From NCBI GenBank assembly GCA_025453925.1, contig JALOPK010000144.1, positions 1 to 8,063 of the forward strand: a DNA stretch of 8,063 nt, written 5' to 3'. Both the position numbers and the translations under genes were made by a program. This document shows positions 1-3,444 of the stretch, piece after piece. This DNA comes from Candidatus Eiseniibacteriota bacterium. GTDB lineage: Bacteria; JAFGKV01. The stretch's first letter is position 1; every line of letters begins with the position of its first letter. The notes under the pieces were generated by a model. The model was not told the DNA's origin and did not search any database. It saw only the letters and a program-made list of their open reading frames with translations.

Positions 1-945
1 CACGACCACCGGGGTTACGGCCGTCTCCCGGGTCGGCCGTAACCGGGGCCGGGTAAACACCACAGTCAGGGCTGTCACGCCGGCCATCACGAAAACGGCA
101 GGCAGCCAGACGGCTGCCCGATGCCGCCGCGGCAGTTGGCGCGAAGCGGAAGCGGATGGGCGAAGCAGCTCTCGCGCGGAAGCGACGTCTTGGGGCCTCT
201 GCTCCGGTCGCTTTTCCAGCAGCGCGGCAAGGAAACCCCGGGCTTCCTCCGGCACATCAGCCGGAAGGGAGGCGATGGGATCCGACTCCAGCAGGCCCCG
301 CACTGCCTCCTGGAATGTCTCGCCCGGAAACGCCCTCCGCCCCGCCAGCGCCTCGAAGAGCGTTGCGCCGAGGCTGAACAGGTCGGATCGGGCATCGGCG
401 GTGCCGCCCCGCAGAGTCTCGGGATCCATGTATGCCGGCGTTCCCACCAGCGTGTCGCTCTGGGTGGCGGCAGGACTCTGCACGAGCCGGGCGAGCCCCA
501 GGTCGGCCAACTTCGGGCCCTTGACGCTGAGCATGATGTTCGACGGCTTGATGTCGCGGTGGATGATCCCCGCGGTGTGGAGGGCCTCGAGCCCTTCCAG
601 CAGGGTGCGTGCGAGGGGCAAGAGCTCCTCCCAGGGAAGCGGACCTGCCGCCAGCCTCCGCGCCAGATCATGCCCTTCAACGTACTCGGACGCCAGATAG
701 AGCCTGCCTTCGTCTTCGCCGCAGTCGTAGACCCTGACAACGGCGGGATGGTCGATCTTCGCGAGCGCCTTCGCCTCCCGCTCGAATCGGGACCGGCGTT
801 CCGCCCAGCCCGGGCCGCCCGATGGAAGCACCTTCAGGAACACCTGGCGATCCAGCCGCGTGTGCACGGCTCGGTACGATAACGCCTGGCCGCTGTCGCC
901 CACCGGAGCGAGGATGCGGTAGGGGCCGATCGTCTCCTCAGCCAT
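1..945 (-). CDS. Membrane-anchored Ser/Thr protein kinase (Hanks type), C-terminus beyond window
   Basis: Reading leftwards from the ATG at 945 gives 315 open codons that leave the window with no stop, so the protein is partial. It is a PknB-like eukaryotic-type kinase that would phosphorylate Ser/Thr on partner proteins from the cytoplasmic face of the membrane. Visible motifs are a glycine loop (G16, G19, but Ala at 21 where a third Gly is usual), the ATP-binding Lys in VFLKVL (K38), the alpha-C Glu in FEREAKAL, the catalytic loop HRDIKPSN (129-136), DLG (148-150) in place of DFG, and GTPAYMDPE (168-176) in place of GTPxYMAPE. All catalytic residues are present, so it is probably active. 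A hydrophobic stretch at about 277-297 follows a basic patch and looks like one transmembrane helix, so a sensor or extracellular part may lie beyond the edge. The ATG overlaps the stop of the upstream activator gene (ATGGCTGA), which fixes the start and implies translational coupling. The kinase family call is firm; the substrate is inferred. Confidence 0.93.
   Translation of the reverse strand, partial: MAEETIGPYRILAPVGDSGQALSYRAVHTRLDRQVFLKVLPSGGPGWAERRSRFEREAKALAKIDHPAVVRVYDCGEDEGRLYLASEYVEGHDLARRLAAGPLPWEELLPLARTLLEGLEALHTAGIIHRDIKPSNIMLSVKGPKLADLGLARLVQSPAATQSDTLVGTPAYMDPETLRGGTADARSDLFSLGATLFEALAGRRAFPGETFQEAVRGLLESDPIASLPADVPEEARGFLAALLEKRPEQRPQDVASARELLRPSASASRQLPRRHRAAVWLPAVFVMAGVTALTVVFTRPRLRPTRETAVTPVVV
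13..44. repeat. Perfect 11-bp inverted repeat inside the kinase juxtamembrane region
   Basis: GGTTACGGCCG (13-23) and CGGCCGTAACC (34-44) are exact reverse complements around a 10-base spacer, and the short string ACCGGGG occurs at both outer sides. It lies in the kinase gene just after the transmembrane helix, coding for an Arg/Pro/Thr/Val linker. It could form a strong hairpin in mRNA or simply reflect Arg/Pro-rich GC-biased coding. Its function is unknown. Confidence 0.5.
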
Positions 946-2431: not shown

Positions 2432-3444
2432 GATACCACCTTGAATGCGGCCTCACGGGACCGTCCGGTGTTGCCGAAGGAGTCGATGGTGTGGAGTACC
2501 CAGTAGTAGGTGCCGGTGCTCAAGGCAGTGCCCACGACGGCGGAGTCGGTCAGCGCGGGGAAGAGGGAGCTCTCCCAGGCAGTGGCTTCCACCCCGCTGT
2601 CCACCCGTATGACGCGAGCTCGCAGCACGGAAGGGTATGCGGGAGCAGGCGGAATCCAGCGCAGTACGGGGCGCGGCCCGACCTCCTCGAGTCCCGACGG
2701 CGCGATGAGCGTGCCAACATCTCGAACCACTCGAACCAGCCTGATCACGCAAACCGCCGATGAGGCCGCCTGCTTGTCCCACGCCTGGAAGGTAAAGTCG
2801 GCGCCGACGAAGTCTTCCGCGTTGAACGGAAACTGCACGGCGTCGTCCAACGTAGCACGGAAACTCCCCGGGGTCAGCTCGGGCGAGAGCACAACGCGGA
2901 GGTTGCCTGCGGCGGTGCAGCAGACGCTGTCCAGGTCTCCCATCCCGTCGGCATCCTCCACCCGCGTGGTGAGGGTGATCCACTCCTCGTAGGGCTCCGG
3001 CCACCACCTCTCCTCATGCGTTGATGCAACCGACGCCTGCGTGATCGCCGGAAGGGCGTTCAGATAGAAAAGTTGGTGCTCGCGGGCCGGGCCCAACGGA
3101 GGGACAACAACACTGCAGGGGGCGAACATCCCCCCCGAGGTCACCACCATGACGGATTCCGGCGGGAGGTAGAGGAGCGCGAACGCACCGTCGGCATCCG
3201 TGCTGTCTACGAGACCGAATGCGGGCGCCGCAACGGGGACACCCTGCAGGGGGCGATGGGGAGCGAAGAGACTCATGACGTGACCGAACACGGGGGCGTA
3301 TCGCCCCGTCTCCGGATCCAGGGGATTGTCGCGCGGCGCATCGCCGCACGTGGCGAAGAGCGCCCCTGCCAACATCGTGACACAACAGGCGAGGGTCGGC
3401 CAGGCCTGCCGCCCGGACCCGTGAGGGCCACGGAAACAATTCAT
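2428..3444 (-). CDS. Predicted lipoprotein with carboxypeptidase-regulatory-like and FN3-like domains
   Basis: I take the ATG at 3444, giving 338 residues; the frame stays open further upstream (ATGs at 3483 and 3585), but only 3444 puts a normal signal sequence at the N-terminus. The start is a short basic region, a hydrophobic core (about 14-32) and Cys33 in ALFATCGD. The residue before the Cys is Thr, not the usual Gly/Ala/Ser, so the lipobox is imperfect. CGDAPRDNPLDPE after it is typical of outer-membrane lipoproteins in FCB-type bacteria. Residues about 51-116 (PLQGVPV...STDADGAFALLYLP) resemble a carboxypeptidase-D regulatory-like beta-sandwich. Residues about 156-241 contain VEDADGMGDLDSV, and about 257-338 (PVLRW...GTYYWVLHTIDSFGNTG) resemble a fibronectin type III domain. 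It has no catalytic motif that I recognise. It probably sits at the envelope and binds a protein or glycan. Being first in the operon with a sigma-54 activator and a membrane kinase, it may be the sensor or a target of that chain. The surface location is well supported; the role is inference. Confidence 0.85.
   Translation of the reverse strand: MNCFRGPHGSGRQAWPTLACCVTMLAGALFATCGDAPRDNPLDPETGRYAPVFGHVMSLFAPHRPLQGVPVAAPAFGLVDSTDADGAFALLYLPPESVMVVTSGGMFAPCSVVVPPLGPAREHQLFYLNALPAITQASVASTHEERWWPEPYEEWITLTTRVEDADGMGDLDSVCCTAAGNLRVVLSPELTPGSFRATLDDAVQFPFNAEDFVGADFTFQAWDKQAASSAVCVIRLVRVVRDVGTLIAPSGLEEVGPRPVLRWIPPAPAYPSVLRARVIRVDSGVEATAWESSLFPALTDSAVVGTALSTGTYYWVLHTIDSFGNTGRSREAAFKVVS

Follow-up and report, generated by a model that had tools for sequence, protein, structure and literature searches.

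PorX/PorY-SigP, composed of a two-component system and an extracytoplasmic function (ECF) sigma factor, controls the type IX secretion system (T9SS) in Bacteroidetes. PspF, the activator of the PspF-PspA phage-shock system, possesses to our knowledge neither a GAF domain nor a kinase. In Myxococcus, Ser/Thr-kinase signaling is thought to feed sigma-54 transcription through FHA-type activators. These FHA-domain enhancer-binding proteins are the subject of Jelsbak 2005, cited in PMC12288465. Here, we analyzed an 8,063-bp stretch of DNA (the window), which constitutes a complete contig (JALOPK010000144.1) of a Candidatus Eiseniibacteriota bacterium (GCA_025453925.1, 82% complete, labeled G000; genus mate G001, family mate G002). 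The window encodes, on its minus strand, a predicted lipoprotein (LIP), a sigma-54 activator (ACT), and a Hanks-type kinase (KIN). We consider it fairly probable that LIP-ACT-KIN is a conserved regulator cassette for envelope or surface proteins, in which ACT would act on tandem palindromes with KIN and LIP as its input.

ACT displays the domain order and motor motifs of activators with the NifA/NorR layout (GAF-AAA+-Fis), but its cassette differs from them in the palindrome, in a candidate regulon of exported proteins, and in constant lipoprotein and membrane-kinase neighbors. Unlike the Myxococcus type, ACT contains GAF and no FHA domain, is in fixed linkage to a lipoprotein and a PEGA kinase, and occurs in other phyla. 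As in PspF-PspA, a sigma-54 activator is associated with a gene of the PspA family (here in one genome), although many surface proteins besides PspA are candidate targets here. As in PorX/PorY-SigP, regulation is tied to T9SS, but with sigma-54, a Hanks kinase, and cargo-like genes. Kinase-TPR-GAF-sigma-54 activator fusions resemble ACT-KIN in joining a kinase to a GAF-sigma-54 activator, and differ in forming one long chain with TPRs, with no PEGA domain found and no lipoprotein partner. One such fusion (1699 aa; kinase-TPR-GAF-sigma-54 activator-Fis helix-turn-helix (HTH)) is encoded in the window's own genome (L186, G000:C273:2973-8072), with a similar one in G055 and a likely one in G002.

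A literature search of open-licence papers found none on a LIP-ACT-KIN-type cassette, which is apparently undescribed so far. Each part is of a known kind; what appears new, as regulation of a sigma-54 activator, is the fixed cassette with candidate enhancers and exported-protein targets. It provides candidate regulatory logic, with testable DNA sites, for exported proteins of phyla known mostly by metagenomes, and connects a Hanks kinase with sigma-54 transcription by a conserved gene cassette instead of a two-component pair. Experiments look feasible because the relatives include Roseithermus sacchariphilus (a strain with a complete genome) and a metagenome-assembled genome named Melioribacter roseus.

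Searching for LIP in 60 related or random genomes revealed six full-length matches, all followed by ACT and KIN on the same strand. An alignment of LIP was then scanned against 84,980 species genomes, giving 109 relatives, of which the best 80 were kept for locus counts. ACT lies within 1 kb downstream of LIP in 78 of these 80 loci, excluding a chance neighborhood, as the loci were fetched by LIP alone. KIN is present in 69 of the 71 loci offering over 2.2 kb of space, and the ACT and KIN genes overlap or abut in most loci. The loci cover Fermentibacteria/Fermentibacterota, KSB1, Calditrichota, Ignavibacteriae/Melioribacter, Rhodothermia, Kryptoniota, WOR-3, and TA06, with the order retained at a cross-phylum LIP identity of 22–30%. 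LIP, ACT, and KIN distances correlate (r 0.89–0.91), in part by shared ancestry. The gene-order conservation that the sequence-only reading (an earlier note made from the window's letters) had proposed as a check is thus strong over several phyla, and the lipoprotein partner, which it had regarded as unusual, is the norm in this group and no local oddity.

The same reading had described three coupled minus-strand genes with stop/start overlaps, an activator without a receiver, and a layout without a histidine kinase. All of this is borne out: the open reading frames are present with both overlaps exact to the base (Table 1), no histidine kinase occurs among the scanned genes of the window, and Pfam assigns to ACT a GAF (residues 27–168), a Sigma54_activat (194–360), and an HTH_8 domain (467–495) and no receiver. 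By its domains, ACT is not an NtrC-type response regulator, an N-terminal GAF taking the place of the receiver. The window ACT contains the sigma-54 activator motifs GESGTGKE, GAFTGA, GGTFFLDE, and PPLRER. Walker A/B, GAFTGA, and the R-finger, characteristic of enhancer-binding-protein AAA+ domains, are kept in nearly all 70 ACT relatives, as is the S-x-R-W signature of the recognition helix. The best NCBIfam score is that of NifA, at 360.6 bits well under the equivalog cut-off of 528.85; the GAF domain sets ACT apart from the PspF layout (AAA+-HTH, no N-terminal regulatory domain), and a search for FHA gave no match at E 0.01. rpoN is present in 18 of 20 genomes searched, including G001 and G002; it was not found in the 82% complete G000 assembly. 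ACT probably works through sigma-54, a reading with good support.

KIN contains a Pkinase domain (residues 14–252) with the Hanks-type residue set (Lys, Glu, HRD, Asn, DFG Asp, APE). Its C-helix Glu (E55) is at least 90% conserved in 57 relatives, and the window KIN has DLG. The kinase domain and membrane helix of the earlier description are both there; since the window is the whole contig, however, KIN breaks off behind its membrane helix. The 522-aa G001 orthologue comprises a kinase (about 1–260), a helix (274–295), a disordered linker, and two β domains (380–445 and 451–515), the second recognized as PEGA by Pfam. The single membrane helix predicts a topology with the kinase domain inside and the PEGA-like domains outside.

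LIP matches no Pfam or NCBIfam family, Pfam being empty even at E 10. Its AlphaFold2 model is all-β and confident (pLDDT 94), and we read it as three sandwich domains; matches in the PDB are Ig/FnIII-type at the domain level (TM about 0.2–0.36). The β-sandwich part of the earlier claim thus holds, while the lipoprotein part needs correction: the lipobox of the window LIP (LFAT-C33) is weak and atypical (FAT-C), and the call is made from the family pattern: in 80 of 80 relatives, a Cys follows a hydrophobic stretch and lies no more than 12 residues from NPLDP.

Table 1. Features of the LIP-ACT-KIN cassette in the window
Feature	Position	Strand	Basis
KIN: Hanks-type kinase and membrane helix, cut by contig end; relatives add linker and two PEGA-like domains	1..945	-	Pfam, relatives
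KIN predicted membrane helix (about residues 278-298)	52..114	-	TM in 61/62 full-length relatives
KIN HRD catalytic motif	553..561	-	K, HRD, N, DxG Asp, APE Glu unchanged across 63/63 relatives
ACT stop / KIN start overlap (ATGGCTGA)	938..945	-	sequence, exact
ACT: GAF - AAA+ sigma-54 activator - Fis HTH, receiver absent	938..2431	-	Pfam, NCBIfam, alignment
ACT Fis-type HTH (residues 467-495), recognition helix SLRWLQYKLKEW	947..1033	-	S 70/70, R 69/70, W 68/70 relatives
ACT GAFTGA loop (residues 269-274), sigma-54 contact motif	1610..1627	-	G, F, G, A 70/70; T 66/70
LIP stop / ACT start overlap (ATGA)	2428..2431	-	sequence, exact
LIP, predicted exported lipoprotein: C33, then GDAPRDNPLDP, then all-beta part read as three sandwich domains	2428..3444	-	sequence, family, AlphaFold2

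The cassette usually continues with a Kelch protein (KEL) and a TPR/DUF5683 protein (TPR), present in 45 and 56, respectively, of the 58 loci with more than 5 kb available. KEL carries Kelch repeats and a T9SS-type tail and TPR a DUF5683 segment, both below the Pfam cut-off in Fermentibacterota. The conserved unit exceeds three genes, KEL-TPR probably being under a sigma-54 promoter of its own. Within a single locus, LIP-ACT-KIN would thus form the regulatory half and KEL-TPR the first set of targets. In some Ignavibacteria-type loci (L068, L069, L087, L104; by eye), the gene after TPR encodes a small STAS/anti-anti-sigma-like protein. Identity as a defense system was rejected, the PADLOC matches of KIN and ACT being only to generic kinase and RtcR/AAA domains; LIP, KEL, and TPR have no PADLOC match.

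Sigma-54 sites were called by a weighted score (at least 13/15) against a background of 2000 random windows. They occur at the KIN/KEL junction in 16 of 62 loci (26%) and after TPR in 17 of 53 (32%), compared with 1.0% at random, and at 0–2% of LIP, ACT, KIN, and TPR starts; at the same threshold, none lies upstream of LIP (0/78) or KIN (0/69). About half of the 20 good -24/-12 matches in 1.15 Mb fall at the KIN/KEL junction or 86–108 nt after TPR. Most sites at the KIN end start no more than a few bases from the stop codon. Autoregulation of LIP by an upstream sigma-54 site was rejected (1 weak match in 81 regions vs 1.8 in shuffles).

Immediately past the TPR stop codon are GTGCA-N5-TGCAC palindromes arranged in tandem, with a spacing of about 20 nt. 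Counted in the loci from which the motif was derived, 18 of the 79 matches of at least 9/10 in 1.15 Mb lie in the 150 nt after TPR, an about 40-fold enrichment; at 8/10 or better, the first 50 nt after TPR hold 41 matches (52 loci) vs 0–4 in other TPR bins. In 26 of 28 loci, a second palindrome (lenient, at least 6/10) lies at a distance of 18–21 nt, which is exactly 20 nt in 17 of them, and after TPR the palindrome precedes the -24 element by 65–67 nt in 8 of 16. Smaller peaks 50–73 nt and 209–223 nt after the KIN stop are located downstream of the KEL promoter. These palindromes, including those from genomes with an orphan ACT, are likely candidate ACT sites, judging by position and co-occurrence. 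In L078, L083, L087, L098, L103, and L108, a CGAA-rich clade variant (e.g., TACGAAAAATTTGCGTA; by eye) replaces GTGCA-N5-TGCAC after TPR.

Sites outside the cassette proper are present in the window genome (L290), the family mate (L269, L291, L292, and nearby L032), and the KSB1 phylum (L262, L264, L265, L266, L268); those used are mainly pairs, or palindromes with a sigma-54 element. In G000, TGGCCCGGTCCTTGCAC is located 128 nt upstream of an ATG, and a palindrome pair falls within the first codons of a protein (one site). This protein is a relative of the 804-aa FlgD_ig-tailed gene product encoded after the cassette in G001; the -24-to-palindrome order is as at KEL, not as at TPR. In G002, a palindrome pair together with TGGCATGATCCCTGCAT is found ahead of a 905-aa DUF3160 protein close to the cassette, further sites precede a DUF3160 paralogue (L292) and a 491-aa secreted-looking protein (L291), and a single palindrome precedes a CotH/LTD protein (L269). 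In the KSB1-phylum genome G152, the pairs are found with two kinds of T9SS-tailed protein, VIT-VWA and DUF3160, as well as with a large secreted protein and with a PspA/Band_7 (flotillin) operon. DUF3160 proteins adjoin sites in both Fermentibacterota and the KSB1 phylum, and VIT-VWA orthologues (48% identity) are found adjacent to a site, next to ACT, or following TPR.

Against a reversed control, the tandem-pair search gave 5 vs 0 strand-matches in G002, 14 vs 0 in G152, and 1 vs 0 in G000, none in G001, and noise level in GC-rich Roseithermus (2 vs 3 in the control). Over 82 KSB1-phylum genomes, the composite pattern, whose reversed control is not composition-matched, produced many coding matches, and only the AT-rich G152 and G142, chosen by eye, were followed. 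Lone perfect palindromes in GC-rich genomes, mostly chance occurrences within coding sequence, were discarded. At the far end of the window (7647-8063, +), a gene start encodes a Propeptide_C25 (gingipain-type) domain, typical T9SS cargo; upstream of it lies a weak sigma-54-like site, GGGCACGCTAAATGCA (7509-7524), with no palindrome pair seen.

ACT, as a sigma-54 enhancer-binding activator, would most likely bind the tandem palindromes as two sites about 20 nt apart and, with RNA polymerase-sigma54, switch on KEL-TPR, the next gene, and unlinked exported surface-protein genes; in one genome it may also turn on an envelope-stress operon (PspA/flotillin). KIN would be a kinase that spans the membrane once, its two PEGA-like domains lying on the far side, and LIP a lipoprotein of the Ig/FnIII-like kind that is exported. 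As the most likely input, KIN, with LIP helping or gating it, would sense envelope state or protein export and signal to ACT, probably through Ser/Thr phosphorylation or GAF-domain contact. Sequence comparison shows which genes make up the set and in what order, which catalytic residues are kept, where promoters and palindromes lie, and what kinds of genes are linked; ACT binding to the palindromes, LIP-KIN contact, ACT phosphorylation, and the signal are what we infer. KIN and LIP as input to ACT is the most economical reading, helped by the existence of natural kinase-GAF-sigma-54 fusions. A wider formulation, to which we give slightly less than even credence, is that in several FCB-related phyla a lipoprotein and a PEGA kinase gate ACT, setting exported T9SS-type surface proteins and envelope-stress genes via tandem TGCA-N5-TGCA enhancers, some of which would lie within the target gene, past its promoter. 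The sequence-only reading had placed a sigma-54 regulon under an envelope protein and a Ser/Thr kinase; its unit is real, as gene order is kept across phyla and a candidate sigma-54 regulon is recognizable, while control of ACT by KIN and LIP stays at the level of a proposal.

Several points weigh against this proposal, and the orphan ACT genes are the main reason for caution. The scan, seeded by LIP, is silent on ACT occurring without LIP; in a reverse search of 21 genomes (ACT orthologues at E ≤ 1e-186 vs 1e-151 for the next activator), the KSB1-phylum genomes G152 and G153 were the only LIP-less ones with an ACT orthologue, and KIN elsewhere in them was not searched for. With similar palindromes and no LIP, these two show that the LIP-ACT link is not absolute. 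Conversely, L099 and L107 are extra LIP-KEL pairs, with the Kelch gene directly after LIP and no ACT or KIN, in genomes that also hold LIP followed by ACT (L053, L052). In KIN, every relative has a degenerate glycine loop, which leaves kinase activity less than certain. The KIN/KEL promoters of Fermentibacterota are only weak matches (12/15), the window contig stops short of that region, and the ACT-palindrome link is positional, with the shared loci of derivation and counting and the unmatched control composition noted above.

ACT might instead be controlled only by a small GAF ligand, KIN and LIP co-traveling and acting elsewhere (e.g., on KEL/TPR or secretion). Ligand binding is common for GAF domains, and both the orphan ACT genes, which keep similar neighbors as well as palindromes, and the LIP-KEL pairs without ACT fit such a view; we nonetheless hold it unlikely in the face of the close ACT-KIN coupling, the kinase-GAF-sigma-54 fusions, and a membrane-bound KIN whose kinase domain is predicted to lie opposite its PEGA-like domains. 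Only a little less doubtful is the idea that LIP is a structural surface protein, such as a partner of the Kelch protein, leaving KIN alone to sense: Ig/FnIII-type domains are ordinary in surface proteins and L099 and L107 pair LIP with KEL, but relative to the KIN/KEL promoter LIP is placed with the regulators and has no sigma-54 site (at least 13/15) ahead of it, and it therefore does not look like an ACT target. A passively kept operon of unrelated genes is very improbable; high synteny is by itself no proof of function, yet the order withstands deep LIP divergence across phyla, and promoter and palindrome positions are conserved with it.

Upstream of the cassette, the plus strand of the window (3769-7439) encodes a HAD hydrolase, a methyltransferase (ATGA overlap 4428-4431), and PhzF-like, C_GCAxxG_C_C, and muconolactone-isomerase-like proteins. 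The HAD, PhzF, and C_GCAxxG genes adjoin the cassette in G001 too, with identities of 52, 87, and 75%, respectively.
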